A stretch of DNA of 56,125 bases from an uncultured Mediterraneibacter sp. (GTDB taxonomy: Bacteria > Bacillota > Clostridia > Lachnospirales > Lachnospiraceae), in the NCBI GenBank assembly GCA_944384505.1, contig CALWTQ010000016.1, forward strand, positions 1 to 56,125. The letters are read 5' to 3'. The position numbers were made by a program, and so were the translations under genes. This document shows positions 8,747-47,974 of this stretch, in pieces (positions within the stretch are counted from its first letter, which is position 1; every line of letters begins with the position of its first letter). The notes beneath the pieces were generated by a model. The model did not search any database, was not told the origin of the DNA, and was given only the letters and a program-made list of their open reading frames with translations.

Positions 8747-9652
8747 ATGGAACAATTTGTAAATACATTTTTTAACTGTGTAAGTCTTAGCTCCATTATC
8801 CTGCTGACATCATTAGGCCTTGCGATTACATTCGGACTTATGAAGGTAATCAATATGGCGCACGGCGAATTCCTGATGATCGGAGCATATATGACATATG
8901 TCGTGCAGAATATCTTTGAGCGCTTCTTTCCGACAGCTATTTTTAGTCTATACTATTTCTTTGCACTTATCGCAGCCTTTGTGGTGACTTTTTTCCTTGG
9001 AGCTGTTCTGGAACGGACGATCATTTCCAGACTTTATGGACGTGAAATCGACAGTCTTCTGGCTACATGGGGAATCAGTTTGATCCTGCAGCAGGCGGCC
9101 AGAAGCATCTTTGGAATGCAGGGGGTAAATGTCAGAGCCCCATCCTTTCTGAACGGAGGTATTACCATAGGGGGATGTACGTTTTCATATAATCGTATGT
9201 TCATACTCGGGCTGGTGATCGTATGTCTCATTGCTGTCTGGTATATCATGTACAGATCGACTTTCGGCAAACAGATGCGTGCCGTGATGCAGAACAGAGC
9301 AATGGCACAGTGTATGGGAATCAATTCCAAAAAGGTTGATATGATCACATTTTCTTTTGGTTCCGGTCTTGCCGGTCTCGCGGGATGTTCCGTGGCTCTG
9401 CTTGGCTCTATTGACTCAACCATCGGACAGAGTTACATTGTCAATTCTTTTATATCGGTCGTACTCGGCGGTGTAGGGAAACTGACAGGTACAGTACTCG
9501 GCTCTTCGATCATCGGGTTCGGCAGTATCGGATTTGAGAACTATACATCCGCCAGTATCGCAAAAGCAGCAGTTCTGCTGATCGTGATCATTGTTCTTCA
9601 GTTCAGGCCTCAGGGACTGTTTTCAGTGAAGAGCAGAAAGCTTGATGAGTAA
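8747..9652 (+). CDS. urtB: Urea ABC transporter permease UrtB
   Basis: This 301-residue polytopic membrane protein of the LivH type is one of the two urea channel subunits. ATG 8747 lies 7 nt after GCGAGG; ATG 8741 would be too close. It has about eight hydrophobic segments. Recognisable motifs include GLAITFGLMKVINMAHGEF, typical of LivH/UrtB N-termini, and VLGGVGKLTGTVLGS near the C-terminus. It follows urtA by about 110 bp and precedes urtC by 14 bp. The UrtB identity rests mainly on context with urtA and the urease genes. Confidence 0.92.
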   Translation: MEQFVNTFFNCVSLSSIILLTSLGLAITFGLMKVINMAHGEFLMIGAYMTYVVQNIFERFFPTAIFSLYYFFALIAAFVVTFFLGAVLERTIISRLYGREIDSLLATWGISLILQQAARSIFGMQGVNVRAPSFLNGGITIGGCTFSYNRMFILGLVIVCLIAVWYIMYRSTFGKQMRAVMQNRAMAQCMGINSKKVDMITFSFGSGLAGLAGCSVALLGSIDSTIGQSYIVNSFISVVLGGVGKLTGTVLGSSIIGFGSIGFENYTSASIAKAAVLLIVIIVLQFRPQGLFSVKSRKLDE

Positions 9653-9666
9653 GGAGGAGAAGAAAT

Positions 9667-10746
9667 ATGAGAATAAAAAATAAGGGCTATCATATCTGTT
9701 TTGCGATTATTGTGGTCCTGCTGATTCTTGCGCCGCTTCTGTTGTCAGCCGGAGTGATCACAAGCAGTTCATTTATTTTGTTTCTCGGGAAATGTATCGC
9801 ATTTTCCATTGTGGCCATCGGGCTGGATCTCATCTGGGGATATACGGGAATCCTGTCTCTTGGCCATGGACTGTATTTTGCTCTGGGAGGCTACGCCATG
9901 GCAATGTTTCTCAAGCTTCAGACAACAAACGGCAGGATTGTGTCATTTATGCAGACTGGTGGTATGACAGAGCTTCCGGCGGTCTGGAGACCGTTTCTGC
10001 ATATGGGACCGGCTATGGTTTTGGTAATACTGGGACCGGCTGTGCTATCCGGCGTGATCGGGTTTTTTATTTTCAGAAACCGTATCAAAGGAGTTTATTT
10101 TTCCATTATCTCTCAGGCATTGACCTGGGCCGCCTACTCTCTGTTTACAGGTCTTCAGTCTTATACCGGGGGAAATGTGGGAATCACGGAGATCACTTCT
10201 TTGCTTGGAAGTATTAAAGGAGACGCTAACAGAGGGAAAATGTTTCTTCTGTTCTATATATCTGTCGCCATCCTGGTGCTGATCTATATACTGTCCAGTT
10301 TCCTGACACAGACAAAATTCGGTAAACTGCTCATCGCGATCCGGGACGGCGAGAACAGGACTTATTTTTCAGGGTACTGTGTCAGTCGTTACAAAAATTT
10401 CGTTTATGTCCTGTCGGCTGTTTTTGCGGCGATTGCAGGTGCCATATTTGTAAACTTTAACGGATCGATCACACCGGCACAGATGACGATTTCCTATTCC
10501 ATTACAATGGTAATCTGGGTTGCGGTAGGCGGAAGAGGTACTCTGGTTGGAGCAGTGCTTGGAGCTTTCCTGATCAATCTGTGTGACTATAACTTTTCCT
10601 CCGGGACAATGGTGGAAATCTGGCAGTATATCCTTGGAGCAATATTTGTTGTGACGATTCTTTTTTTCAAGGGAGGTCTTGTGGGAATCGTCAGAGATCA
10701 GCTGCCTGTCTGGATGAAAAAAGTGACACGTAAGGAGGCGGAATAG
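9667..10746 (+). CDS. urtC: Urea ABC transporter permease UrtC
   Basis: This 359-residue polytopic membrane protein of the LivM type forms the second channel subunit with UrtB. The start follows AAGGAGGAG. Motifs include DLIWGYTGILSLGHGLYFAL, GVYFSIISQALTWAAYSLF and WVAVGGRGTLVGAVLGAFL, all usual for UrtC. The length is typical. It ends one base before the urtD start, so the genes are tightly coupled. Confidence 0.93.
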   Translation: MRIKNKGYHICFAIIVVLLILAPLLLSAGVITSSSFILFLGKCIAFSIVAIGLDLIWGYTGILSLGHGLYFALGGYAMAMFLKLQTTNGRIVSFMQTGGMTELPAVWRPFLHMGPAMVLVILGPAVLSGVIGFFIFRNRIKGVYFSIISQALTWAAYSLFTGLQSYTGGNVGITEITSLLGSIKGDANRGKMFLLFYISVAILVLIYILSSFLTQTKFGKLLIAIRDGENRTYFSGYCVSRYKNFVYVLSAVFAAIAGAIFVNFNGSITPAQMTISYSITMVIWVAVGGRGTLVGAVLGAFLINLCDYNFSSGTMVEIWQYILGAIFVVTILFFKGGLVGIVRDQLPVWMKKVTRKEAE

Positions 10747-10747
10747 T

Positions 10748-11527
10748 ATGGCAAATGAAAATGTACTTGAAATAAAAGATATCACTGTTGACTTTGACGG
10801 ATTCTGTGCTCTGCTGCGGGTAAATGTAAATGTGAGGAGACATTCTATTCACTTTTTTATCGGTCCAAACGGAGCCGGGAAGACAACCCTTCTTGATATT
10901 ATCTGTGCCAAAACGGCGCCCACTTCCGGCGTCTGTATGTTTTATCCGGAGGGAAGAAAGCCTGTAAAGCTGACGGGGATGAAAGAGTACAAAATTGTCG
11001 GAGAGGGGATTGGACGAAAATTTCAGGTCCCATCTGTATTTGTAAATCTGAGCGTTATGGACAATATGATTTTGTCGCTGAAAGGGAACAAGGGAGTGCT
11101 GCAGTCTGTTTTCTTCCGTCTGTCCAAAGAGGAAGAAGAGCAGATCAATGAGGTGCTCAGGACCATTGATCTGCTGGACAAAAAAGATGAAAAAGCCGGA
11201 TCTCTCGCGCACGGTCAGAAACAGTGGCTGGAGATCGGTATGCAGCTGGTTCAGAAACCGGAGATCATTATGCTTGATGAACCAGCTGCCGGAATGGGGA
11301 AACCCGAGACGTTCAAGTCCGGCGAAATTCTGAAAAAGATCAAGGAAACCTGTACAATCCTTGTGGTGGAACATGACATGGAATTCGTAAAGCAGATTTC
11401 CGATAAGGTTACTGTACTCCATGAAGGAAAAGTCCTGATCGAGGGAACCTGCGATGAGGTGCTGGCCGATCAGACTGTTCAGGCCGTATATCTTGGAAGA
11501 GGAGGGGAAAGAAATGCTGAAGATTAA
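10748..11527 (+). CDS. urtD: Urea ABC transporter ATPase UrtD
   Basis: This 259-residue cytosolic ATPase powers urea import with UrtE. It shows Walker A GPNGAGKTT (about residues 41-49), the signature LAHGQKQWLEIGM typical of UrtD, Walker B IIMLDEPAAGM and the switch VVEHDMEFV. The C-terminal part is the LivG-like extension. It overlaps urtE by 14 bp, which suggests translational coupling and equal amounts of the two ATPases. Confidence 0.94.
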   Translation: MANENVLEIKDITVDFDGFCALLRVNVNVRRHSIHFFIGPNGAGKTTLLDIICAKTAPTSGVCMFYPEGRKPVKLTGMKEYKIVGEGIGRKFQVPSVFVNLSVMDNMILSLKGNKGVLQSVFFRLSKEEEEQINEVLRTIDLLDKKDEKAGSLAHGQKQWLEIGMQLVQKPEIIMLDEPAAGMGKPETFKSGEILKKIKETCTILVVEHDMEFVKQISDKVTVLHEGKVLIEGTCDEVLADQTVQAVYLGRGGERNAED

Positions 11528-12206
11528 GAATATCGACTCTTATTACGGGGAGAGCAGGATCATTTCTTCCCTTTCCCTGGATGTGGATAAAGGAAAGATT
11601 GTCTGCCTGATCGGACGCAACGGAGTAGGAAAAAGTACAACTCTCAAGAGCATTATGGGACTGGTGAGGACCCCGAAAGGCAGCATTCTGCTGGATGGAG
11701 AAGAGATCATAAAAACTCCCACTTATAACAGAGTAAGAAAAGGAATCGGATATGTGCCGCAGGGACGTGATATTTTCCCACAGATGACAGTGTATGAAAA
11801 CCTGATGCTGGGGCTTCAGGCAAAAGGCAGTAAAAAGGAAATGCCGGAATATATCTACAAGCTTTTTCCGATTTTAAAAAAATTTGAAAAAAGAAAAGGA
11901 GGAGATCTTTCCGGAGGACAGCAGCAGCAGCTGGCCATTGCAAGAGCCCTTGTCACAGAGCCCAAAATCCTGATTCTGGATGAGCCGACGGAAGGAATTC
12001 AGCCTTCAGTCATTCAGGATATCGGCAATGTGATCCGGAAGATCAACAGTGAACTGGGGCTGACTGTCCTGATCGTTGAGCAGTATCTGGATTTTGTGCT
12101 CGGCATCTCGGATTATCTGTATCTGATGGAAAAGGGAGAGATCATAATTCAGGGAAATACAGCGGAGCTTGATGCCAAAGAAGTACAGGACAAAATGACG
12201 CATTAA
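11514..12206 (+). CDS. urtE: Urea ABC transporter ATPase UrtE
   Basis: This 230-residue LivF-type ATPase is the second nucleotide-binding subunit. ATG 11514 follows GAGGGGAAAG inside the urtD end; a longer in-frame start has no family support. Motifs: Walker A GRNGVGKSTT, signature LSGGQQQQLAIARAL, and ILILDEPTEGIQPSVI, whose GIQPS ending is characteristic of UrtE. It is followed by the urease structural genes after 16 bp, so urea import and hydrolysis are one transcription unit. Confidence 0.95.
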   Translation: MLKIKNIDSYYGESRIISSLSLDVDKGKIVCLIGRNGVGKSTTLKSIMGLVRTPKGSILLDGEEIIKTPTYNRVRKGIGYVPQGRDIFPQMTVYENLMLGLQAKGSKKEMPEYIYKLFPILKKFEKRKGGDLSGGQQQQLAIARALVTEPKILILDEPTEGIQPSVIQDIGNVIRKINSELGLTVLIVEQYLDFVLGISDYLYLMEKGEIIIQGNTAELDAKEVQDKMTH

Positions 12207-37744: not shown

Positions 37745-38218
37745 ATGCAGAATGGAATTTACAGAAAAAAAAGTATTGACAGGGTAAAATCGCCAGAACA
37801 ATTAAATGACTATATCCGTGTCCCAAATCCGGGGGTGTGGCTGATATTGGCTGCCATAATCATTCTCCTTGCCGGCATATGTGTCTGGGGCGTTTTCGGA
37901 AAACTTGATACTAAGGTTTCAACGGTAGGCACATGTACTAACGGTACTATGACCTGTTATGTGAGCAGTGATGATATCCGGCAAATTACAGACGATATGA
38001 AGGTTACTGTGGAAAACAGGGATTATGAGATCCTTTCCATCGGTAATACAGCGATAAAAGCAGGCGACGGATTGAATGAGTATCTTCGTTATCTCGGTGG
38101 GTTCAGTGAAGATGAATGGTTATATGAAATTACAGTAAAAACAGACTTGCCAGATGGTGATTATGAGGCAGAAATAGTTGTGGAAAGCATATCTCCTATG
38201 TCTTTTATCCTGAATTGA
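37745..38218 (+). CDS. Short HlyD-like adaptor of NHLP-type peptide export
   Basis: This 157-residue protein has a cytosolic N-terminus with YRKKSIDRVKSPEQLNDYIR, a transmembrane segment (WLILAAIIILLAGICVWGVF, about 33-52) and a small extracellular beta domain. The KSPEQLNDYIRVPNPGVW start is that of the HlyD-family secretion protein of NHLM/NHLP bacteriocin clusters, but the long coiled coil and most of the lipoyl part are missing; full HlyD proteins are 2-3 times as long. It heads the export operon, 13 bp before the peptidase-ABC gene. Confidence 0.8.
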   Translation: MQNGIYRKKSIDRVKSPEQLNDYIRVPNPGVWLILAAIIILLAGICVWGVFGKLDTKVSTVGTCTNGTMTCYVSSDDIRQITDDMKVTVENRDYEILSIGNTAIKAGDGLNEYLRYLGGFSEDEWLYEITVKTDLPDGDYEAEIVVESISPMSFILN

Positions 38219-38231
38219 GAGAGGCTTATCT

Positions 38232-40439
38232 ATGAATAAAGAAAATAATCACAAAAACCAGAAGAAGATTAAAAAGCCAATCACAAAAGGGGTCGCAAAA
38301 GTTCCTGTCGTTATGCAGCTTGAAGCATTAGAATGCGGTGCCGCCTCTCTTGCTATGATTTTGGCTTATTATGAAAAGTGGATTCCGCTGGAACAGGTCC
38401 GGTCTGACTGTGGAGTGTCCAGAGATGGATCTAAAGCCAAAAATATTTTAGTTGCGGCACGCAGTTATGGATTAAATGCTAAGGGGTATCGTTACGAGCC
38501 GGAGGCGCTTCGAAAGGAAGGAAAATTCCCGTGCATTGTTCATTGGAATTTTAATCATTTTGTTGTACTCAACGGATTTAAAGGCAATAAGGCTTATCTC
38601 AATGATCCTGCAAAAGGTACATATTCTGTGACAATGGAGACTTTTGATGAATCATTTACCGGTATTTGCCTGATGTTTGAACCGGATGATTCTTTTGTCC
38701 CTTCCGGTAAGCAGAAGTCTATACTTGAATTTGCAAAGTCAAGAATGGTGGGCACAGGCGCAGCTGTTGCCTTTGTTGTCTTGACGAGTATCATCTCGTC
38801 TTTAATGGGTGTGATCAACCCGGCGTTTTCGCGCGTCTTTTTGGACAGACTTTTAACCGGCGTCAATCCCGAATGGTTTATGCCGTTCATTATCGGTTTG
38901 GCAGGATTTAATGTGATTCAGCTTATTGTTGCCTGGATAAGTGCTGTATATAACCTGAGGATTAACGGAAAAATGGATGTTGTCGGAACTACATCGTTTA
39001 TGTGGAAGGTTCTCAGAATGCCGATGGAGTTTTTTTCACAGCGTATGGCGGGCGATATTCAACAAAGGCAGACATCAAATGCGCAGATTGCCTCGGATCT
39101 CGTAAACACCTTCGCGCCTCTTGCTCTGCAGTCGGTTATGATGGTGTTTTATCTTGTTGTTATGATCCGTTACAGCCCGATCTTAACGCTTGTCGGCGTT
39201 TTATCAATTGTTGCCGATATGATTTTCTCAGGAATCATATCCAAAAAGCGAGTCAACGTTTCCCGTGTTCAAATGCGTGATGCCGGTAAGCTCGCAGGCG
39301 CTACGGTTGCTGGTATTGAAATGATCGAAACGATCAAGGCAAGCGGCGCTGAGAACGGATTCTTTGAGAGATGGGCAGGCTATCAGGCGAGCGTAAATAC
39401 ACAGCAGGTGAAATTTGAAAAATTAAATCAGTATCTTGGAATGCTTTCGGCCTTCGTATCTTCGCTGATGGATACAGCCGTTTTGGTGCTCGGTGTATTT
39501 CTTGTTATTCAAGGTGAGTTTACGGTTGGTATGATCATGGCATTTCAAGGATTTTTAACCTCTTTTACTGCGCCTGCGGCAATGCTCATAAATGCGGGAC
39601 AAACGTTTCAAGAGTTACGCACCACAATGGAGCGTGTGGAAGACGTTATGGAATATCCTACCGATGTAAACTATGAAAGTGAAAGCTTTTCAGTGGACGA
39701 GGATAAGGATTATGATAAATTATCCGGTAATATTGAAATAAAAAATATCACTTTTGGATATGCAAGACTTGGTGAACCTGTGATTACTGATTTTAATATG
39801 TCGATCAAAACAGGTCAGCGCGTTGCCTTTGTCGGCGGCTCCGGCTGTGGTAAATCCACTCTTGCTAAATTGATTTCCGGATTGTACAAGCCCTGGAGCG
39901 GCGAAATATTATTTGACGGGAAGCCGATGTCTGAGATCGATCGGGAAGTGTTTACCGGTTCTCTTGCGGTTGTCGACCAGGATATCATTCTTTTTGAGGA
40001 TACTATTGCCAACAACATAAAAATGTGGGATTCTTCCATTGAAGATTTTGAAATGATCATGGCTGCACGTGACGCTCAGCTCCATAATGACATTATGCAG
40101 CGGGAAGGCGGCTATCAGTATAAGATTACCGAAGGTGGCAAGGATTTCTCCGGCGGTCAGCGTCAACGAATGGAAATTGCCCGTGTTCTTGCCCAGGATC
40201 CTACGATAATCATTCTTGATGAAGCGACAAGCGCGCTGGATGCAAAAACAGAATATGACGTCGTTAAGTCAATTAAGGACAGAGGCATTACCTGTATTGT
40301 GATTGCCCACCGTCTTTCTACGATCCGCGACTGTGATGAGATTGTTGTGCTTGACTACGGTAAGGTTATTGAAAGAGGAACACACGAGGAACTGATGGCT
40401 CTCGGCGGTAAATACACGGAGCTTATAGCAAATGAGTGA
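38232..40439 (+). CDS. NHLP-type export ABC transporter with C39 peptidase domain
   Basis: This 735-residue protein cleaves double-glycine leaders and exports the core peptides. Residues about 25-150 are a C39 Cys protease with Cys35 in MQLEALECGAASLAMIL, the His in FPCIVHWNFNHFVVLNG, and NDPAKG. Six transmembrane helices follow (about 165-465), then the ATPase with GGSGCGKSTLAKLISGL, FSGGQRQRMEIARVLAQDP and IIILDEATSALD. The family corresponds to the peptidase/permease/ATPase of NHLM microcin clusters. GG-leader precursors lie three genes downstream and beyond. Confidence 0.93.
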   Translation: MNKENNHKNQKKIKKPITKGVAKVPVVMQLEALECGAASLAMILAYYEKWIPLEQVRSDCGVSRDGSKAKNILVAARSYGLNAKGYRYEPEALRKEGKFPCIVHWNFNHFVVLNGFKGNKAYLNDPAKGTYSVTMETFDESFTGICLMFEPDDSFVPSGKQKSILEFAKSRMVGTGAAVAFVVLTSIISSLMGVINPAFSRVFLDRLLTGVNPEWFMPFIIGLAGFNVIQLIVAWISAVYNLRINGKMDVVGTTSFMWKVLRMPMEFFSQRMAGDIQQRQTSNAQIASDLVNTFAPLALQSVMMVFYLVVMIRYSPILTLVGVLSIVADMIFSGIISKKRVNVSRVQMRDAGKLAGATVAGIEMIETIKASGAENGFFERWAGYQASVNTQQVKFEKLNQYLGMLSAFVSSLMDTAVLVLGVFLVIQGEFTVGMIMAFQGFLTSFTAPAAMLINAGQTFQELRTTMERVEDVMEYPTDVNYESESFSVDEDKDYDKLSGNIEIKNITFGYARLGEPVITDFNMSIKTGQRVAFVGGSGCGKSTLAKLISGLYKPWSGEILFDGKPMSEIDREVFTGSLAVVDQDIILFEDTIANNIKMWDSSIEDFEMIMAARDAQLHNDIMQREGGYQYKITEGGKDFSGGQRQRMEIARVLAQDPTIIILDEATSALDAKTEYDVVKSIKDRGITCIVIAHRLSTIRDCDEIVVLDYGKVIERGTHEELMALGGKYTELIANE

Positions 40440-40452
40440 GGAGGGATAAAAA

Positions 40453-42642
40453 GTGGGCTGGTTTAGCGAACAGATCAAACAAAGAAAAAATGCCGATAAC
40501 GATGCTTTCTTTGAATCCTTCGACAATATTGCTGATGCTGTAACGGGCAGGAGAATTGCATCCGCAATGAATGATAGCAGGGCGATCACCCAAAACGCCA
40601 TTGATATTATATTAAAATATTACCATGTGAAAAAACGCGAAATACCGGACGGTATAAACGACATAAACGAGCAGCTCGAATATCTTCTCCGCCCATGCGG
40701 CATTATGCGCCGTACTGTAAAGCTTGAAGCCGGCTGGTACAAGGATGCTGTCGGCGCCATGTTAGGAACCTTCAAGGATGATGGACATGTTGCTGCGCTG
40801 ATTCCGTCAGGTATAACAGGATATAGCTACTACGATGCAGAAAAAGAAAAATTCATAAAAATAAACCGGAAAAATCAAGAGCTTTTTGACAAGGAAGCAT
40901 TTGCTTTTTATAAGCCGTTTCCTCTCAAAAAGCTCACGCTCGCATCCCTGATGAAATATACCCTCAGCACAATGTCTGCCGCCGATGTTGTTTGGGTGAT
41001 GCTTTCAACATTGGCAGTAACTCTTGTGGGAATGCTTAGTCCTGAGATTACAAATATTTTGTTCTCAACCGTGATCGAAAGTGAGAGCATTCGTTTGCTT
41101 TTGGCTATTGCAGTATTCTCTGTGTGTGTATCGGCCAGCTCAATGCTTTTTTCTACGGTCAAGTCGTTGATCAGCGCGAGGCTGAATATCAAAATGAGTA
41201 TTAATATTCAGGCTGCGACCATGATGCGTGTGATGTCCCTTCCTGCAAGTTTTTTTAAGGACTACAGTGCCGGTGATCTTTATTCCCGTGTTGAAGGAAT
41301 TAACTCACTTTGCACAATGCTTGTGCCTGCAATTTTTTCAACGGGACTTACTTCCATTTTTTCGTTTGTTTATATTGCGCAAATTTTAAATTATGCTCCG
41401 GCTTTGGTGCTTCCCGCTGTTTTCTTTACTTTGCTGACGATCGCGTTTACACTTCTTACTGCCTTTGTTCAAATGAAGATTGCGAGAAAGCGTATGAAAT
41501 TTGCCGGTGAAGAAAGCGGTATGACATATGCCCTGATTACCGGTGTTCAAAAGATTAAGCTTTCCGGTGCGGAAAAAAGGGCTTTTGCCCGGTGGGGGAA
41601 TTTGTATGCCAAGACGGTTCAACTTACATACAATCCGCCGGTGTTCCTGAAGATCAACAGTGCTATATCTTTGGCAATATCTCTTACAGGCACTCTTGTT
41701 ATGTATTATGCAGCAGTAAAGAGCGGTGTTTCAGTGGCGGACTATTATTCCTTTAATACGGCTTACGGTATGGTTTCCGGTGCGTTTACAGCTCTTTCGG
41801 CAATTGCGCTTACGGTATCTAACATTAAACCGATTTTGGAACGTATCAAACCAATTTTGAATACTGTTCCGGAAGTTTCTGAGGGAAAGCGGATGGTTAC
41901 TCGTCTGACAGGCGCCATCGAAATAAACAATGTGTCGTTCCGCTATAAAGAAAATATGCCGAAGGTGCTGGATGACTTGTCGCTTAAGATCCGTCCCGGC
42001 CAGTATGTTGCCATAGTGGGGAAAACCGGATGCGGAAAATCTACACTGATGAGATTGCTTTTGGGGTTGGAAACTCCGGAAAAAGGAGCTATTTACTATG
42101 ACGGCCAGGATCTTACAGCTTTAGAACCGAAATCTCTCCGCCGCAAGATCGGAACGGTTATGCAAAACGGAAAACTGTTCCAGGGAGATATTTTTTCTAA
42201 TATTACTATTTGTGCCCCCTGGCTTACATTGGATGATGCCTGGGAAGCCGCTGAAATGGCGGGGGTTGCGGAGGACATCCGGAGATTGCCTATGGGAATG
42301 CACACCATTATTTCCGAGGGATCCGGCGGTGTTTCCGGTGGACAGAGGCAGCGTCTTATGATTGCCCGAGCCATTGCGCCTAAGCCGAAAATCCTGATGT
42401 TCGATGAAGCTACAAGTGCTCTTGATAATTTAACGCAGAAAAAAGTATCAGAGTCCCTTGATTCACTCAAATGTACCCGTGTCGTTATTGCTCACAGATT
42501 GTCTACGATTAAACACTGTGACAGAATTCTCGTCCTTGAAAAGGGAAAAATCGTGGAAGACGGTACATATAACGAGCTGATCGAAAAGAAGGGGGCCTTT
42601 GCAGAGCTTATCGAAAGACAGCGCCTGGATAATAATGAATAA
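40453..42642 (+). CDS. NHLP-type export ABC transporter, second permease/ATPase
   Basis: This 729-residue protein starts at GTG 40453 after GGAGGG. It has an N-terminal cytosolic domain of about 170 residues without a peptidase Cys, a transmembrane domain (about 180-460) and an ATPase with GKTGCGKSTLMRLLLGL, SGGQRQRLMIARAIA and MFDEATSALDNLTQ. It is the partner of the C39 transporter in NHLM/NHLP clusters, where the two ABC proteins and HlyD occur together. The likely role is heterodimeric export. Confidence 0.92.
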   Translation: MGWFSEQIKQRKNADNDAFFESFDNIADAVTGRRIASAMNDSRAITQNAIDIILKYYHVKKREIPDGINDINEQLEYLLRPCGIMRRTVKLEAGWYKDAVGAMLGTFKDDGHVAALIPSGITGYSYYDAEKEKFIKINRKNQELFDKEAFAFYKPFPLKKLTLASLMKYTLSTMSAADVVWVMLSTLAVTLVGMLSPEITNILFSTVIESESIRLLLAIAVFSVCVSASSMLFSTVKSLISARLNIKMSINIQAATMMRVMSLPASFFKDYSAGDLYSRVEGINSLCTMLVPAIFSTGLTSIFSFVYIAQILNYAPALVLPAVFFTLLTIAFTLLTAFVQMKIARKRMKFAGEESGMTYALITGVQKIKLSGAEKRAFARWGNLYAKTVQLTYNPPVFLKINSAISLAISLTGTLVMYYAAVKSGVSVADYYSFNTAYGMVSGAFTALSAIALTVSNIKPILERIKPILNTVPEVSEGKRMVTRLTGAIEINNVSFRYKENMPKVLDDLSLKIRPGQYVAIVGKTGCGKSTLMRLLLGLETPEKGAIYYDGQDLTALEPKSLRRKIGTVMQNGKLFQGDIFSNITICAPWLTLDDAWEAAEMAGVAEDIRRLPMGMHTIISEGSGGVSGGQRQRLMIARAIAPKPKILMFDEATSALDNLTQKKVSESLDSLKCTRVVIAHRLSTIKHCDRILVLEKGKIVEDGTYNELIEKKGAFAELIERQRLDNNE

Positions 42643-42721: not shown

Positions 42722-43066
42722 ATGGAAAAAGGAATGATCATTACAGATGAAATGTACAAAAAGGCAAAAGAATGCAAGTCTGTCGAGGAGATTATGGCGC
42801 TTGCAAGGGAAAATGGCGTTGAACTCAGCGAGGAACAGGCAAAGGGATTTTGGGAAAAGCTGAATCCTGCGAATGGTGAGATCTCTGATGATGAGCTTGA
42901 CAATATCTCAGGCGGCGGATGCGGCGGGGGAGAAGAGGTAAAGTATTGCCCCAGATGCGGTTCACAAATGGTAGGATATGTGTATATGGTCAGCAAAACT
43001 CAGGCAAAAAGGGGCTGGGCGTGCAGAAACTGTGAACCGAACAATCCGTACATTCAGCCATATTGA
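42722..43066 (+). CDS. RiPP precursor 1: Nif11-like leader plus CxxC-CxxC core
   Basis: This 114-residue precursor-type peptide has a leader (about 1-65) containing YKKAKECKSVEEIMALAREN and ending ISDDELDNISGGGC, a Nif11-like plan with a double-glycine site at about 64-65. The core (about 66-114) is rich in Gly and aromatic residues, with C76-x2-C79 (YCPRCGS) and C101-x2-C104 (ACRNC). This is the spacing of a small zinc ribbon. The gene follows AAAGGAG and lies between the exporter and radical SAM genes. Whether the four Cys bind metal, form disulfides or are modified is not known. Confidence 0.85.
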   Translation: MEKGMIITDEMYKKAKECKSVEEIMALARENGVELSEEQAKGFWEKLNPANGEISDDELDNISGGGCGGGEEVKYCPRCGSQMVGYVYMVSKTQAKRGWACRNCEPNNPYIQPY

Positions 43067-43084
43067 GGGTGAAAGGAAGTTATT

Positions 43085-43423
43085 ATGGAAAATAAAAGAT
43101 ATGTTTTAACTGAAGAATTATATACAAAGGCAAAAGAATGCAAGTCTGCCGGGGAAATTATGGCGCTTGCCAGGGAAAATGACATTGAGCTTGGCGAAGA
43201 ACAGGCAAAGGAAGTTTTTGCAAAGCTGAATCCCGTAAACGGTGAAGTTGCAGATAATGAGCTTGACAATGTCGCCGGCGGCGGATGCGACTTATTCGAT
43301 GGAGGTGTTTGCGAAGTCTGCGGCAGTGATAAGGTAACAACAAAGTGGATGCAAGATGAAAACGGACGTGTCAGGCAGGGTGTGGTGTGCGCTGCCTGCG
43401 GAACATTCTGGCGCTGGGCCTAA
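43085..43423 (+). CDS. RiPP precursor 2: paralogue of precursor 1
   Basis: This 112-residue peptide is a close paralogue of the preceding one in its leader: YTKAKECKSAGEIMALAREN, EEQAK, KLNPVNGE and DNELDNVAGGGC (double glycine about 65-66). The core diverges strongly but keeps C76-x2-C79 (VCEVCGS) and C102-x2-C105 (VCAACGT). Conserved leader with variable core is typical of RiPP precursors that share a processing system. It is followed after 38 bp by the radical SAM gene. Confidence 0.85.
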   Translation: MENKRYVLTEELYTKAKECKSAGEIMALARENDIELGEEQAKEVFAKLNPVNGEVADNELDNVAGGGCDLFDGGVCEVCGSDKVTTKWMQDENGRVRQGVVCAACGTFWRWA

Positions 43424-43461
43424 TAAAAATCCTCCCTGCAGGATCCAAAGGAGAGAAAGAA

Positions 43462-44886
43462 ATGAAATACATATTAAATCCTGATATTGCCCTGCGCAGC
43501 TGGTGGTATGTGCCGTATGCCTACTATTGTAAAGGTGATTTCAAAGCGAAAAAACTGCAGAAAGAAGAATTTGAATTTCTTTCTCTTTGTGACGGTGAGA
43601 ACGAGCTTCCCGAAGATGGGCTTGCCGCCGAACTAAAAGAGCGTGGCTTTATCAGGGAGGCTAGAGACTGCGGCAGTATGTCCGATTGGCAGCGGGCGAA
43701 ATTCTGTAATAACAGATATTTTCCCCTTGCCAATTGGATGATTACTGGAAAATGCAATTACAACTGTCTGCACTGTTTTAATGCGGCGGACAATGCAAGG
43801 CTTCAAAGTGAATTTACTTTAGAGGAAGCAGAAAAGATGCTTTGCGAAGCGGAAAAATGCGGGATTACCGGCTTTACCATTACAGGTGGAGAACCGCTCC
43901 TGCATCCGTATTTTATGGATATCATCCGCAGCATTTATAAGAGAAATATGTTTGTGCGGGAGTTGAACACAAACGGGTATTTCCTGACACAAGAGATATT
44001 AGATGAGATGAATGCGATCGGATGCCGTCCGCTTATGAAAATATCCTTTGACGGTGTGGGGCATCACGATTGGCTGAGAAACCGCAAGGGCGCAGAGGAA
44101 GATGCGCTTCGGGCGATCAGGCTCTGCAAGGACAATGGCTTTCGTGTTATGGCACAGACAAATGTGCATAGGCTGAATGTGAACTCCATGCTGCCTACTG
44201 CGAAGCTTCTTGACAGCATGGGAGTAGACAGAATCCGCATCATAAGAACCACCGAGGCGCCCCGCTGGGTGCAGAATGCCGGTGACAGTTGTCTTGGCAT
44301 TGAGGAATACTTTGACAGGATGACGGAATTCTGCCGTGAATACGCTGAGACTGACTGCAAAATGGAAGTGGATATATGGCAGTTCGTTCGTTTGTACCCT
44401 CATATAAAGCGGTATATACCTTCATCGGTACAATACAGTGAAGGCGAATACCGAGATACACTGCCTGTCTGCAAGGGAAACAGAGGGATGGTCGCCATTG
44501 CGGCAAATGGCAATGTATTTCCGTGCCATCAGTTGTCGGGCTATTATGAACAGCATGGAGATATTTTGGGGAATGTGAAGAAAGATGGTTTGCAGTCAAT
44601 CCTGCAGGAGAGCAAATATCTCTGCGAGGTAACAACAACCGTCAAAGATTTAAGAGAGCAAAATTCTGTTTGTGATAAATGCAAATGGTTTAAGTACTGC
44701 TGCGGCGGCTGCCGGGCTATTGGCCTGGCGTTAACCGGGGACAAAATGGGTGTGGATAAATTTAAGTGTATCTTTTTTGAAAAGGGATATCTTGATAAGC
44801 TGGCGGAGGCTCTGCCTGACTACACATCTATGGTTAACTTGGATTTTTCGCATAAAGAATCAGGAGAAACGCAGGATGGAAAGTAA
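43462..44886 (+). CDS. Radical SAM/SPASM peptide-modifying enzyme with PqqD-like N-terminus
   Basis: This 474-residue enzyme starts at ATG 43462 after AAAGGAGAG. Residues about 1-70 (NPDIALRSWWYVPYAYY, FLSLCDGENELPE, ELKERGFIREA) resemble a PqqD-like peptide-recognition domain. The radical SAM cluster is CNYNCLHC (Cys98, 102, 105), followed by TITGGEPLLHP and MKISFDG. The C-terminal SPASM region has CKGNRGMVAIAANGNVFPCH, CDKCKWFKYCCGGCRAIG and a final Cys. Such enzymes install thioether or C-C links in RiPP precursors. Placed next to the CxxC precursors, it is the candidate modifying enzyme. Confidence 0.92.
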   Translation: MKYILNPDIALRSWWYVPYAYYCKGDFKAKKLQKEEFEFLSLCDGENELPEDGLAAELKERGFIREARDCGSMSDWQRAKFCNNRYFPLANWMITGKCNYNCLHCFNAADNARLQSEFTLEEAEKMLCEAEKCGITGFTITGGEPLLHPYFMDIIRSIYKRNMFVRELNTNGYFLTQEILDEMNAIGCRPLMKISFDGVGHHDWLRNRKGAEEDALRAIRLCKDNGFRVMAQTNVHRLNVNSMLPTAKLLDSMGVDRIRIIRTTEAPRWVQNAGDSCLGIEEYFDRMTEFCREYAETDCKMEVDIWQFVRLYPHIKRYIPSSVQYSEGEYRDTLPVCKGNRGMVAIAANGNVFPCHQLSGYYEQHGDILGNVKKDGLQSILQESKYLCEVTTTVKDLREQNSVCDKCKWFKYCCGGCRAIGLALTGDKMGVDKFKCIFFEKGYLDKLAEALPDYTSMVNLDFSHKESGETQDGK

Positions 44887-45061
44887 GTTAAAACAATTAT
44901 TTGATTTTCAGCGTTTTCAAAACAATGACCGTCTTGCACGGATGATTATAGAAACCGAAAGTCGCTATGGCAAAGAACTCAACGACGAAGACCTTTCTTT
45001 CGTTAGTGCTGCAGGTGAGGAATCTTTTTGCCAGCACAGAAAGGACGAACCATGGCGATGA
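44876..45061 (+). CDS. Small leader-like peptide ending SAAGE...PWR
   Basis: This 61-residue peptide starts at ATG 44876 inside the radical SAM end and stops inside the sigma-factor start. The sequence LFDFQRFQNNDRLARMIIET, then ELNDEDLSFVSAAGEES, has the acidic leader-end shape of precursor peptides, with AAG in place of GG. The tail FCQHRKDEPWR has only one Cys. It could be a short precursor or a small protein helping the system. The family is not firmly recognised. Confidence 0.65.
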   Translation: MESKLKQLFDFQRFQNNDRLARMIIETESRYGKELNDEDLSFVSAAGEESFCQHRKDEPWR

Positions 45062-45540
45062 ATGAAACTCTTGATAAGGAAAAGATATATGCTGACTATC
45101 ATTTAAAAGTGAGAAGTTATGTGGCAAAGCGTATTCAAAATACTTACGATATTGAGGATGTAGTATCCCAGGTTTTTCTAAAGGTATATAAAAATTTAGA
45201 AGGTTTTAATAGCAGTAAAGCTTCGGTTTCAACATGGATTTATACCATAACAAGAAATACTGTAATAGATTTTTTCAGAATACAAAGCGATTTTTTTCAA
45301 CTAAAAGCAGAGATTCCTTCGAATGATAAGGTCGACGAAGAGCTGCTTCGTGAAGAACTTTTAGATGAACTTGCATCAGCGCTTGAAAAATTGGATGAGC
45401 GAGAGAGAGACATTATTATCCTCCATTATTACAGCGAAAAAACATTGGTTGCGATAGCTGAGCTCATGCATATTTCGTACCCATATGTAAAGATACTGCA
45501 TAAAAACGCTATAAACAAATTAAAAGAATTTATGACGTGA
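45052..45540 (+). CDS. ECF-type RNA polymerase sigma factor
   Basis: This 162-residue sigma-70 family protein has region 2 (YHLKVRSYVAKRIQNTYDIE, DVVSQVFLKVYKNL, STWIYTITRNTVIDFFR) and region 4 (LDERERDIIILHYYSEKTLV, AIAELMHISYPYVKILHKNA). ATG 45052 lies 6 nt after AAGGA. No anti-sigma factor is visible beside it. It may direct transcription of the peptide cluster or of the LRR surface protein that follows. Confidence 0.9.
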   Translation: MAMNETLDKEKIYADYHLKVRSYVAKRIQNTYDIEDVVSQVFLKVYKNLEGFNSSKASVSTWIYTITRNTVIDFFRIQSDFFQLKAEIPSNDKVDEELLREELLDELASALEKLDERERDIIILHYYSEKTLVAIAELMHISYPYVKILHKNAINKLKEFMT

Positions 45541-45558
45541 TTGGAAGGGGAAAATAAC

Positions 45559-47178
45559 ATGAAGACAAAAAACATTTTATCGGTCATTCTTGTAGTGCTG
45601 ATTGCCGTTATTGTTGTGCCGATGACAGCAAATGCGGAAACTGAAGATGTTTACAGCTACACTATAGAAAATGGCGAAGCAACAGTTACGGAGGTTGATA
45701 CGTCAGTGACGGGAAACGTAATTATACCCGATGAGCTCGGCGGGTATCCTGTCACAGCAATCGGTGACTGGGCATTCGAATATTGTACGGAAGTGACTGG
45801 CATCACGATTCCGGACAGTGTTACAAGCATCGGTGACTGGGCGTTCTACTATTGTCCGAAACTGACGAGCGTAACGATCGGTAATGGTGTTGAGACTATT
45901 GGTGATTGGGCGTTTAGTAAATGTAACGGACTAACCAGTATCTACATCCCGGCTAATGTAACCAGTATCGGAGGAGGTGCATTTAGCGATTGCGGTGCAT
46001 TGGAAAGCTTTACAGTTGATGCGGCAAATAAGGCATATTACCTTAAAGACAATTGTCTCATTAATACGGAATCAAATGAATTGGTCAAAGGCTTTAATAC
46101 TAGCATAATTCCTACAGATGGCAGCGTAACGAGTATTGGTGATTATGCATTCTACAGATGCGATAAACTGACAACAGTAACAATCCCGGACAGTGTTACA
46201 AGTATCGGAGCCAGTGCATTCTTTGGGTGTATAGGACTTACGGATGTAACAATCGGTACAGGCGTCAATAATATCGGTGACAGTGCATTTTACAGCTGTG
46301 AGAAACTGACTGATATTGTGATTCCTGAAGGTGTTGAGCGTATTGCAGATGATGCGTTTGCGTGGTGCTCTGAATTGGAGGCTGTTTCACTTCCAAATAG
46401 TGTCAGAGGGATTGGCAGCCGGTCCTTTAGTCACTGTACTGCATTGACGAGTATCACTCTCCCGGACAGTATTGAGAGCATCGGAATTAATGCATTCTAC
46501 TACTGTACAGGCCTGACAAGTATTGTGCTCCCGAACAGTATAACGTATATTTCGGAGGCGGCGTTTGATGGCTGCAGTAATCTTATACTCACGGTGTATC
46601 CCGATTCTTATGCTTCTCAATATGCCGCTTTAAATGAGCTGAGCTATCATATATCTGTAGAGGCCGAAGATATTCCTCCGACCTGTACTGAGGATGGGCT
46701 TACCGGAAAAACTTATTGTTCGATATGTAATGAGACCCTTAATCCCGGAGAAGTAGTTCCTGCAACAGGACATACACCCGGCGAATGGATCATTGAAAAG
46801 GAACCGACTGATTCTGCCGAAGGACTTCGTATACAGAAATGTACTAAATGTGGAGCAGAGCTTGCCCGCGAGGTGATTCCGGCAGATAATACAGGCAGCT
46901 CGCAAGGCGGGGATAATACGAACGGCCCGCAAAGCGGGAATAGTACAGGCAGCTCGCAAAGCGGGGATAATACGAACGGCTCGCAAAGCGGGAATAGTAC
47001 AGGCAGTTCGCAAAGCGGGAATAATGCAGGCGGCTTGCAAAGCGGGAAAGATATAGATACCCCGGAAACCGGAGATGGCTCAAATATCCGGCTATGGGTA
47101 AGTCTTATGTTTTTTAGCAGTGGGCTCTCTGCATTTGGAATCATCGCTGCCCTAAAACGCAAAGAAAAAGCGCAATAA
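45559..47178 (+). CDS. BspA-like LRR surface protein with PETGD anchor
   Basis: This 539-residue secreted protein starts at ATG 45559 after GGAAGGGG. It has a signal peptide (cleavage near ANA, about 30), about eleven LRR_5/BspA-type repeats (SVTSIGDWAFYYCPKLTSVT pattern, about 55-365), a CxxC-containing bacterial repeat (TYCSICNETL and QKCTKCGAEL, about 375-440), a linker with six 9-residue tandem repeats, and the sorting signal DTPETGDGSN plus membrane helix and KRKEK. It may be the wall-anchored receptor, target or immunity partner of the exported peptides (inference). Confidence 0.9.
   Translation: MKTKNILSVILVVLIAVIVVPMTANAETEDVYSYTIENGEATVTEVDTSVTGNVIIPDELGGYPVTAIGDWAFEYCTEVTGITIPDSVTSIGDWAFYYCPKLTSVTIGNGVETIGDWAFSKCNGLTSIYIPANVTSIGGGAFSDCGALESFTVDAANKAYYLKDNCLINTESNELVKGFNTSIIPTDGSVTSIGDYAFYRCDKLTTVTIPDSVTSIGASAFFGCIGLTDVTIGTGVNNIGDSAFYSCEKLTDIVIPEGVERIADDAFAWCSELEAVSLPNSVRGIGSRSFSHCTALTSITLPDSIESIGINAFYYCTGLTSIVLPNSITYISEAAFDGCSNLILTVYPDSYASQYAALNELSYHISVEAEDIPPTCTEDGLTGKTYCSICNETLNPGEVVPATGHTPGEWIIEKEPTDSAEGLRIQKCTKCGAELAREVIPADNTGSSQGGDNTNGPQSGNSTGSSQSGDNTNGSQSGNSTGSSQSGNNAGGLQSGKDIDTPETGDGSNIRLWVSLMFFSSGLSAFGIIAALKRKEKAQ
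46891..47052 (+). repeat. Six 27-bp tandem repeats in the LRR gene linker
   Basis: Six in-frame units of 27 bp start at 46891, 46918, 46945, 46972, 46999 and 47026. They encode a 9-residue pattern like TGSSQSGNN. The unit pairs alternate (acaggcag/acgaacgg), indicating duplication of a two-unit block. Length change would vary the wall-spanning stalk without a frameshift. Confidence 0.85.
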
Positions 47179-47250
47179 CTTTCAGGTGGAGATTATTTAC
47201 ATACCACTAAAACAATGAGAAAACAGACACTGAAGCAGATGTGTATTTTA

Positions 47251-47296
47251 TCCCTCCTCTTTTCCGGCAGCGTGCCGGACGAGGGGGATTTTTTTC
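47251..47296 (+). terminator. Strong terminator after the LRR gene
   Basis: TCCGGCA-GCG-TGCCGGA inner stem, flanked by CCCTC/GAGGG, then seven Ts. It ends the operon that began near 37600 and isolates the downstream small precursor genes. No clear promoter is seen between here and 47354. Confidence 0.85.
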
Positions 47297-47353
47297 ACGG
47301 TGGTTCGTATATAGGAATGAAGGACATGATAAGAAGCAGAAAGGAGAAAAAAG

Positions 47354-47551
47354 ATGAAAAAACCCGAAGAATTTGTAAAAGCAGATGGGTGTGAAGAGGA
47401 GAAAGAAGAAATGAAGAGTTCCGGGGTGGAGCTGTCTGATGAGGAGCTCTCTGATTTATCAGGGGGAAAAACTTATTATGAAAAGAAAATAGTCGCAGTG
47501 AAGAATTATGATGAACTTTTTGAACAGCTTGAAAAGGAAACAAGTAAATAA
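47354..47551 (+). CDS. RiPP-like leader peptide with GG site, Cys-free tail
   Basis: This 65-residue peptide starts at ATG 47354 after AAAGGAG. It is very acidic and contains VELSDEELSDLSGGKTYYEK, a double-glycine site at residues 37-38. The tail (VAVKNYDELFEQLEKETSK) contains no Cys. Its TAA overlaps the ATG of the next small gene (TAATG), so the two are likely translationally coupled. It could be a precursor with a linear core, or supply a leader in trans for the Cys4 protein next to it. Confidence 0.7.
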   Translation: MKKPEEFVKADGCEEEKEEMKSSGVELSDEELSDLSGGKTYYEKKIVAVKNYDELFEQLEKETSK

Positions 47552-47682
47552 TGGTGATGAGTGAAGGAGAACTCTGCACAGTATGTAAGAGAAGCACGAG
47601 CTTTTACTGCTTTGAGGGGGATAAGGACGGTAAGAAATGCCGTAAATGTATAGGGTTACAGCAGCTGGAATACATGGAATAA
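47551..47682 (+). CDS. Small Cys4 zinc-ribbon-like protein, coupled to a leader peptide
   Basis: This 43-codon ORF starts at ATG 47551 within the stop of the preceding leader gene. The sequence MVMSEGELCTVCKRSTSFYC and then KKCRKCIGL shows Cys9-x2-Cys12 and Cys30-x2-Cys33, plus Cys20. It matches the cores of the other precursors but lacks a leader and a GG site. Either it is a leaderless relative or the leader gene before it was split from it. Confidence 0.65.
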   Translation: MVMSEGELCTVCKRSTSFYCFEGDKDGKKCRKCIGLQQLEYME

Positions 47683-47704
47683 TTAGTCTGAGGAGGAAAA
47701 ATGC

Positions 47705-47974
47705 ATGGAGTCATTGAATGATAAAATGAAGCCGCATGGAGAAGAAATGACAAAGAAGGAGGCAGAGAGAGTCTTAGCGGAAAGCAGGAAAAAAGCAGGA
47801 GAACTCTCTGATGAGGAACTGAACAGTGTGACCGGAGGAATAGAAGGCGTATTGGAGTATACTGCATGCGGCAACTGCGGAAATAGGTTTTATATTCCCG
47901 TTGTTTCCAAGGATAATAATGGAAAAACCCTTGTAGGGAGGAAATGCACCAGGTGCCATACCGTATATTATTAA
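47705..47974 (+). CDS. RiPP precursor 3: GG leader plus CxxC-CxxC core
   Basis: This 89-residue peptide starts at ATG 47705, 8 nt after AGGAGG; ATG 47701 is out of frame. The short leader ends GELSDEELNSVTGG (double glycine 44-45). The core has Cys55-x2-Cys58 (ACGNCGN) and Cys81-x2-Cys84 (KCTRCHT), the same zinc-ribbon spacing as the two precursors before the radical SAM gene. The leader is shorter than theirs and only its acidic end is similar, so the gene may be a diverged or independently acquired member. Confidence 0.8.
   Translation: MESLNDKMKPHGEEMTKKEAERVLAESRKKAGELSDEELNSVTGGIEGVLEYTACGNCGNRFYIPVVSKDNNGKTLVGRKCTRCHTVYY

Follow-up and report, generated by a model that had tools for sequence, protein, structure and literature searches.

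Candidate secreted zinc-ribbon peptides on Nif11-like leaders beside a radical SAM/SPASM enzyme in an uncultured Mediterraneibacter

Described leader-peptide systems and the Mediterraneibacter locus

The NHLP/Nif11 leader-peptide RiPPs combine a long GG-ended leader with an NHLM exporter, variable cores and several precursors per genome (Haft 2010, PMC2887384), and the locus analysed here resembles them in these respects. In the part of that source available to us their enzymes form azoles and lanthionines and ribbon cores are not described, and the leaders found here differ in scoring under the family cut-offs. Nif11/NHLP precursors are also described with a radical SAM enzyme as sole candidate maturase and a single exporter type (PMC3023750, available sections), as in our locus, although TIGR04064, the radical SAM family named there, is absent among the best 25 of 78 NCBIfam matches of our enzyme. 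Another radical SAM enzyme acting on Nif11/NHLP-leader precursors, the spliceotide enzyme PlpX, excises tyramine (PMC11002830, in the text accessible to us); against TIGR04103 (nif11-class maturase 3) our enzyme scores 84 of a cut-off of 725.

The first-pass annotation of this DNA knew of no RiPP class with a zinc-ribbon-like core, but one is in print: the type II pamtides (FcaA/FcaM), whose precursor is predicted to contain a zinc ribbon (PMC10787088). As far as the accessible portion of that paper goes, these are DnaJ-type CxxCxGxG peptides with a central Asp, encoded in a two-gene cluster with an O-methyltransferase, and a Nif11 leader, NHLM exporter or radical SAM enzyme is not mentioned in their description. 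Read by eye, our three cores lack a CxxCxGxG-D-CxxCxGxG arrangement, no O-methyltransferase lies among the genes scanned at 37.7–48.0 kb (HlyD-like, two ABC, radical SAM, sigma, LRR and peptide genes), and one class of related peptides reaches 20.7–21.8 of the 32.7 bits set for the DnaJ model. Within the open-licence PMC literature, no title or abstract that we found connects GG-leader or Nif11 precursors with zinc ribbons.

The window (the whole 56,125-nucleotide stretch analysed) encodes three peptides, pepA, pepB and pepC2, in which a leader terminating in GG is followed by a CxxC-x21/22-CxxC core; genes for an exporter and a radical SAM/SPASM enzyme stand beside them (Table 1). The open reading frames and cores lie where the first-pass annotation had placed them, and its description of the three leaders as acidic is borne out by net charges of -8, -7 and -3. 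Its statement that the pepA and pepB leaders are nearly identical was too strong, as they agree at 43/65 residues (66%). Both are leaders of about 65 residues, with helices predicted for pepA only (residues 9-16, 21-30, 37-47 and 56-59 of an AF2 model, followed by strands at 84-90 and 95-101), and neither reaches the cut-off of 32.3 bits for Nif11-like leader RiPP precursors, TIGR03798 (25.2 bits for pepA, 20.1 for pepB). The pepC2 leader is shortened to 45 residues, which align with the second half of a Nif11-like leader. The core of pepA carries a Cys at +2 after the GG and then CPRC-x21-CRNC, that of pepB a Cys at +2 and then CEVC-x22-CAAC, and that of pepC2 CxxC-x22-CxxC; the pattern C..C.{21,22}C..C arises by chance in 104, 104 and 23 per 100,000 shuffles of these cores, respectively. 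The small pepC1, recognised earlier as leaderless and so read by us, starts at an ATG overlapping the pepC0 stop (TAATG).

Table 1. Features of the peptide locus and their family scores
Feature	Position	Strand	Description	Family match
HlyD-like	37745..38218	+	short HlyD-like subunit of NHLM exporter, 157 aa	TIGR03794, partial
ABC1	38232..40439	+	NHLM ABC1 with C39 peptidase	TIGR03796, 941.5 bits (cut-off 853.3)
ABC2	40453..42642	+	NHLM ABC2 permease/ATPase	TIGR03797, 742.6 bits (cut-off 709.4)
pepA	42722..43066	+	leader 42722-42916, core 42917-43063	
pepB	43085..43423	+	leader 43085-43282, core 43283-43420	
rSAM	43462..44886	+	radical SAM/SPASM enzyme	PF04055, 75.5 bits; PF13186, 32.1 bits
smL	44876..45061	+	61-aa leader-like peptide (...VSAAGE...), overlapping sigma gene	none
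sigma	45052..45540	+	ECF-type sigma factor	TIGR02937, 104.3 bits (cut-off 42.9)
pepC0	47354..47551	+	GG-leader peptide, Cys-free 27-residue core	
pepC1	47551..47682	+	leaderless 43-aa CxxC-x17-CxxC peptide	
pepC2	47705..47974	+	shortened leader, ribbon core without N-terminal Cys	

With both ABC proteins over their cut-offs the NHLM exporter of the window is intact, and the C39 residues of ABC1 that we take to be catalytic, Cys (ECGAASL), His (HF) and Asp (NDP), are retained in 9/9 aligned ABC1 sequences. The HlyD-like protein is short: its match to TIGR03794 scores 36.6 bits against a cut-off of 156.2 and covers the first 69 positions out of 421. A full-length adaptor was not found at the window locus, and many of the loci listed, L032 excepted, have a relative of the short protein 5' of ABC1.

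Recurrence and probable zinc-ribbon character of the cores

A scan of contigs from related genomes with the radical SAM enzyme alone returned 11 relatives (one of them, L036, an already known contig of genome G012), which with the window and G568 make 13 distinct loci and a 13-member enzyme alignment. The 12 relatives are 45–57% identical to the window enzyme. Nif11-leader peptides with at least four core Cys occur in the fetched stretches of all 13 loci, up to 11 per locus, and 12 of the 13 encode at least one peptide with two CxxC motifs, so that the combination of such leaders with various CxxC cores, which had been proposed as a search in other genomes, does recur. From these loci 58 Nif11-leader peptides were extracted without any Cys criterion; every core has at least four Cys and 53 have at least two CxxC motifs (mean 9.8, maximum 20 in 2000 shuffling runs), the other five (L032:9157, L033:9298, L033:9746, L034:5062 and L035:8822) having a single one. 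Peptide L024:9446 passes the Nif11 model PF07862 (24.9, cut-off 23.8). The exporter and the enzyme lie on separate contigs in G012 and G568. Across the phylum, 14/398 genomes match a precursor profile at 1e-4; the pattern-retrieved cores of that search outside G000 are of other Nif11 or GG types, except a ribbon-like core on an AAG leader in G772 (L115). The PHROGs search gave one weak match of unknown function, and no PLSDB plasmid matched the enzyme at 1e-20.

A profile of the short cores matches 282 PDB sequences at E<=1, with TFIIB best (1.2e-5) and GATA, L37ae, TFIIE, S27, RPA12 and RPC10 among the others, compared with 25 hits (best 0.064, one replicate) for a shuffle in which the Cys were held fixed. 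At the level of sequence, the short cores thus score as zinc ribbons beyond their Cys spacing. Two CxxC knuckles flank a beta hairpin that is predicted with moderate confidence in the AF2 model, although Foldseek with the whole pepA model (pLDDT 67.6) gave 0/44 matches at E<=0.001. Among the Pfam scores listed, a single ribbon model passes its gathering score, for the pepC2 core only (partial match to PF12172 zf-ChsH2, 24.2 against 23.2); the cores of pepA and pepB reach 22.0 of 27 for Zn_ribbon_PaaD and 24.2 of 26.8 for GATA. The long cores with 7–11 Cys matched nothing significant among PDB profiles (best mS66 at 0.021, then Zur at 0.035) and, against NCBIfam, nothing beyond three families with one member each (best 0.0026).

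The first-pass annotation offered metal-binding zinc ribbons or Cys-crosslinked peptides as alternatives; for the short cores the former is the better supported, and the exclusive choice does not hold because most short cores have, at the N-terminal end, one Cys more than a Cys4 metal site requires. That the Cys serve instead as crosslink donors in a metal-free, thioether-bridged peptide of the ranthipeptide or sactipeptide type, with the CxxC spacing a coincidence, is in our view unlikely. The Cys-richness of all 58 extracted cores, the absence of significant zinc-fold matches for the long ones and the kinship of the enzyme's nearest solved structures with RiPP maturases (below) are consistent with it, but the excess of 282 over 25 hits argues for the ribbon fold in short cores, ribbon-like cores also occur in G161 and G483, both lacking this enzyme, and none of the best 25 of 78 NCBIfam matches of the enzyme is over its cut-off.

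Searching with cores only in 99 related genomes gave matches outside the window in 23 of them, all weak (best 3e-6), and 0/18 loci read had a Nif11 or GG-leader precursor at the match; several matches resemble ordinary zinc-ribbon proteins, presumably of NrdR or AccD type as named from their motifs. The expectation that homologues might be ordinary cytosolic ribbon proteins stands in that the fold is common to both, but fails in that the likeness is remote and the family a different one. These matches, and the leaderless pepC1, would suit cytoplasmic zinc-ribbon regulators with the leader as a docking tail, an explanation we hold to be highly improbable since the leader has a GG site, the C39 catalytic residues are kept in 9/9 exporters, and, where this was checked, the genome has an exporter either adjoining the peptides or at another site. 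Among relatives the Cys are conserved (66/70 Cys columns in seven L040/L042 core pairs), and a core dN/dS of 0.27, pooled over 7 pairs, indicates from codon comparison that the cores are under purifying selection.

The radical SAM/SPASM enzyme and the early Cys

The AF2 model of the enzyme (pLDDT 84.7) is matched by Foldseek to SuiB of streptide (6.5e-14), the sactipeptide enzyme SkfB and PqqE, all radical SAM/SPASM peptide maturases, at 12–18% identity over the alignments, and SkfB is also matched by sequence profile against solved structures. To our knowledge, the substrates of these three are not zinc ribbons. No NCBIfam model among the best 25 of 78 matches is over its cut-off (top score 113.2 against 500), and among these the enzyme belongs to no named SPASM maturase family of the ranthipeptide or sactipeptide type. 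Heme-type chemistry, raised by AhbD and NirJ among the top NCBIfam matches, was rejected, as the scores are far under cut-off and precursors are adjacent. The PqqD-like N-terminus of the first-pass annotation finds no sequence support (0/13 N-termini match the Pfam PqqD model, and an N-terminal profile search of the PDB gave 0 hits); the strands and helices predicted in residues 1-66, with a full-length Foldseek alignment to SuiB, are suggestive only of such a domain.

An extra Cys lies at most four residues from the GG in 57/58 extracted peptides (all except L035:8822) and in 0/6 ribbon peptides that have a cut-down leader or come from a genome lacking the enzyme. The Fisher p of 9.3e-8 for this difference is overstated because the grouping was post hoc, because the rows are related to one another, and because G526 supplies two of the six peptides, with an enzyme relative diverged to the same extent as the one in G157, where the early Cys is present; the case of G526 weakens the correlation. 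The enzyme was found at E<=1e-50 in 6 of the 18 genomes tested among 21 matching ones, including all five with an early Cys in ribbon peptides; G157 and G526 have diverged copies only, near 1e-92. In these alignments the early Cys tracks with the presence of the enzyme and a full leader, which we consider a novel finding.

The cores could instead be exported as unmodified zinc ribbons, the enzyme having its substrate elsewhere, for example in an adjoining third class of GG-Cys4 peptides. Such a peptide starts at the stop of the enzyme gene in L037, L040 and L042, the frame of the enzyme continues into one in L038, and ribbon peptides do occur in genomes without the enzyme. We nevertheless regard this as quite improbable, since the (narrow) pattern of the third class is absent from nine stretches with Nif11 ribbon-type peptides adjoining the enzyme (window 37–48.2 kb, L024, L032–L035, L039, L041 and L073), and the tracking of the early Cys with enzyme and full leader also argues against it.

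Proposed pathway and role

We consider it rather probable that the products are secreted zinc-ribbon mini-proteins made on a Nif11-like leader and modified by the radical SAM enzyme, perhaps at the N-terminal Cys. The precursor comprises a Nif11-like leader, predicted to be helical and closing with GG, and a Cys-rich core of about 35–107 residues with a predicted hairpin. The full leader may recruit the enzyme to modify the core, the likeliest site being the extra Cys at most four residues from the GG; a thioether from that residue, for instance, would spare the four ribbon Cys for metal. Given the retained catalytic residues and the known function of NHLM systems, the C39 domain of ABC1 would cleave after the GG and ABC1/ABC2 would export the core, which may fold outside the cell around Zn(II) through its two CxxC motifs. 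Control of the set probably lies with the ECF sigma factor, which in several loci is encoded next to the exporter or the precursors.

Most RiPP cores are short and do not fold until they are modified. Tentatively, the loci may represent a RiPP class with a folded zinc-ribbon core, a radical SAM enzyme that modifies or crosslinks an N-terminal Cys reserved for it next to the metal site, and exchangeable leader and core cassettes forming a reshufflable secreted library. A metal-folded core domain would, if real, widen the substrate range both of NHLM exporters and of radical SAM maturases. These Clostridia would then possess a suite of secreted zinc-finger-like proteins, and the architecture would serve as a scaffold on which cores and leaders can be combined. 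An export tag joined to a miniature zinc-finger-like domain with an adjoining enzyme would, if confirmed by experiment, be an unusual secreted bacterial peptide, and the single N-terminal Cys provides one testable modification site.

As to role, the reading we prefer is a varied set of secreted proteins for binding or competition, because a single locus can hold many different cores, which are conserved between genomes and, as their sequences suggest, seem to move between leaders, and because no recurrent gene resembling dedicated immunity was seen by eye. A bacteriocin with immunity was set aside as the listed loci, inspected by eye and not statistically, offered no recurrent candidate immunity gene. 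Whether smL is a member of the peptide system is uncertain. Its position adjoining the sigma gene is a recurrent arrangement across loci.

Gene set of the window

The peptides and neighbouring genes described by the first-pass annotation are present in the window sequence. The leaders of pepA and pepB, said to be nearly identical, share 43 of 65 residues, and their cores 13 of 42 aligned residues; the HlyD-like adaptor gene is there in a short form. The CxxC-x21/22-CxxC pattern is rare by chance, appearing in 104, 104 and 23 of 100,000 shuffles of the three window cores, respectively. ABC1 and ABC2 are a genuine NHLM exporter pair, with Cys, His and Asp of the C39 domain retained in all nine aligned ABC1 proteins; the pair would cleave the leaders at GG and export the products. 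In the AlphaFold2 model of pepA the leader is helical, residues 52-71 form a loose linker (pLDDT <50), and the two knuckles are joined by a hairpin.

Features of the system and of related stretches
Stretch	Feature	Position	Description
Window	pepA	42722-43066	GG leader, CxxC-CxxC core
Window	pepB	43085-43423	GG leader, CxxC-CxxC core
Window	rSAM	43462-44886	radical SAM/SPASM enzyme
Window	smL	44876-45061	61 aa, leader-like, AAG motif
Window	smL and ECF sigma gene	44876-45540	overlapping genes
Window	BspA-type protein	45541-47178	leucine-rich repeats; repeat-rich stretch near C-terminus
Window	pepC0	47354-47551	GG leader, Cys-free core
Window	pepC1	47551-47682	leaderless Cys4 peptide
Window	pepC2	47705-47974	GG leader, CxxC-CxxC core
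L038	rSAM reading on into peptide	10001-11617	GG-leader Cys4 peptide in frame
L100 (G157)	diverged rSAM and peptide	9961-11801	Nif11-like peptide
L086 (G626)	rSAM relative and neighbours	8870-11650

The best NCBIfam score of rSAM is 113 bits (cut-off 500), and its predicted fold is closest to SuiB, SkfB and PqqE. Invariant in 13 aligned rSAM are the Cys of the radical SAM motif CxxxCxxC and Cys of the SPASM region. The components of the window system belong to known types, namely the RiPP logic of Nif11/NHLP, an NHLM exporter and a SPASM maturase. Their combination with ribbon cores was not found among the titles and abstracts listed in searches of open-licence PMC papers; the nearest precedent, type II pamtides (PMC10787088), has an enzyme and motif unlike those of the window system.

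Outside the window, smL is also paired with a sigma gene in L035, L041, L074, L100, L102, L103 and L104, in some cases without an adjoining rSAM; smL may be a regulator or signal, and the sigma factor a putative control of the system. The BspA-type gene follows immediately after the sigma gene, and its product is the best match of no ORF in other rSAM loci. The pepC0 stop overlaps the pepC1 start (TAATG), making translational coupling of the two possible.

Ribbon-like cores

A leader-only pattern returned 58 peptides from 14 stretches of 13 rSAM genomes and six from other loci, missing at least pepC2, L024:10271 (both with cut-down leaders) and L039:1298. All 58 carry at least four core Cys, and 53 have two CxxC or more, where 2000 shuffles gave a mean of 9.8 and a maximum of 20. 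In 57 a Cys lies within four residues of GG, at +1 in 38, +2 in 13, +3 in 4 and +4 in 2. Two CxxC occur in one of the other six, L026 of G157, a genome with diverged rSAM relatives elsewhere. Three core classes can be distinguished. Short cores run from an early Cys (within four residues after GG) through a CPxCG-like knuckle and a hairpin to CxxC; long cores keep C1, C22, C25, C59, C62 and C74 invariant among 16 aligned; and the third comprises non-Nif11 GG peptides with C...CxxC...C cores, C...CxNCxHF...GxC-like in more detail (15 ORFs in L037, L038, L040 and L042), for which a narrow pattern had no match in nine other stretches. In L038 it is a peptide of this third class that rSAM reads into, and the frame appears to be an enzyme-precursor fusion.

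Searched against PDB, a leader-plus-core profile matched the solved Nif11 domain 9zn4 (9.9e-7) with its leader part. Matches to its core part included a designed zinc finger at 4.3e-5, RNA polymerase ribbons such as RPC10 at 2.4e-4 and, among these, a cytochrome at 0.0022. With the short-core profile alone, E<=1 was reached by 282 sequences of PDB, TFIIB scoring best (1.2e-5), and most of the 60 matches listed are zinc ribbons or zinc fingers of other types; when every residue except Cys was shuffled in the same 17 cores, the number fell to 25 (best 0.064, one replicate). In Pfam the pepC2 core alone exceeds the zf-ChsH2 cut-off (24.2 against 23.2 bits), while those of pepA and pepB stay under the cut-off even for the ribbon or finger model that each fits best; Foldseek with the predicted pepA model, and a PDB profile search with the long cores, gave no significant match. 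Ribbon-like cores are shown; metal binding, like the role of the products, is something we infer.

The short-core profile matches 24 of 99 related genomes, including the window genome, outside which matches are remote (best 3e-6). Of 19 loci kept, the 18 readable ones show ribbons in ordinary proteins, and none contains a Nif11 or GG-leader precursor.

Linkage of enzyme and precursors

The enzyme was not found at E<=1e-60 in 57 other genus genomes examined, and at E<=1e-100 it occurs in four of 391 genomes of the class. An rSAM-only search of genome contigs gave 11 loci; L036 is on the same contig as L024 (G012; length 139,217 in both), and with the window and G568 added there are 13 distinct loci. 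All 13 have Nif11-leader peptides whose cores hold four Cys or more, and all except L034 have one with two CxxC. Exporter genes lie within the fetched stretch in six (window, L032, L033, L034, L041 and, with a partial ABC1, L040), several of the remaining stretches stopping at contig ends, and a sigma gene is close to rSAM in six (window, L032, L033, L034, L035, L041). In G012 and G568 rSAM is separated from the genes for exporter, smL and sigma factor, which occupy another contig, so parts of the system may work in trans; in the more distant G417, rSAM and exporter share a contig and the ribbon peptide is on another. Low G+C across 38-48 kb of the window (0.428-0.445 against 0.50-0.52 just downstream) is weak support for horizontal gain, since regions at about 6-12 and 16-22 kb are equally low.

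Early cysteine and possible core exchange

A Cys4 ribbon requires four Cys, and most short cores have a fifth directly after GG. Six ribbon peptides have no early Cys: pepC2 and L024:10271, with 45 and about 24 leader residues before GG; those of L025 (G161) and L058 (G483), with leaders of 68 in genomes without an rSAM match at 1e-50; and two in L066 (G526), with leaders of 45-46 and a diverged rSAM (3.6e-91) on a different contig. The difference (57/58 against 0/6; Fisher p 9.3e-8) is between groups set after looking at the data, with related rows. L076 of G417, which has rSAM and a Cys at +4, and L115 of G772, where no rSAM matches at 1e-30 and Cys begin at position 11, fit the trend and were left out of the count. 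L035:8822 is an exception, and the rSAM of G157 is as diverged as that of G526, yet early Cys is present. These sequences offer a lead, that rSAM may act at the early Cys when the leader is full-length.

Selection on the cores is seen in seven L040/L042 pairs, picked for the closest agreement of their cores; pooled over the seven, core dN/dS is 0.27. Cys conservation among relatives, on which the original reading depended, holds in these pairs (66 of 70 aligned Cys columns kept). In 9026/3768, 5311/4257 and 6699/3244 the core is little altered (dS 0.18, 0.19 and 0.33, respectively) and the leader near saturation (1.54, not computable and 2.50); 8069/5179, 5791/2311 and 7611/4713 diverge similarly in both parts, and 6255/5640 is far diverged in both. 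The 5311 core also matches L042 2799 (core dS 0.13, leader dS 0.47), so L042 carries an almost identical core on two leaders. These pairs suggest that cores may move between leaders as cassettes.

The L100 peptide, with CxC and glycine-rich repeats, has another type of core. In L075 (G526), NHLM exporter genes are preceded by three rSAM-like genes and Nif11-type peptides, of which one has a core of ten residues, ACCGNACAQC. The L086 rSAM relative adjoins a CxxC protein without GG leader and a protein whose motifs we take to be trypsin-like.
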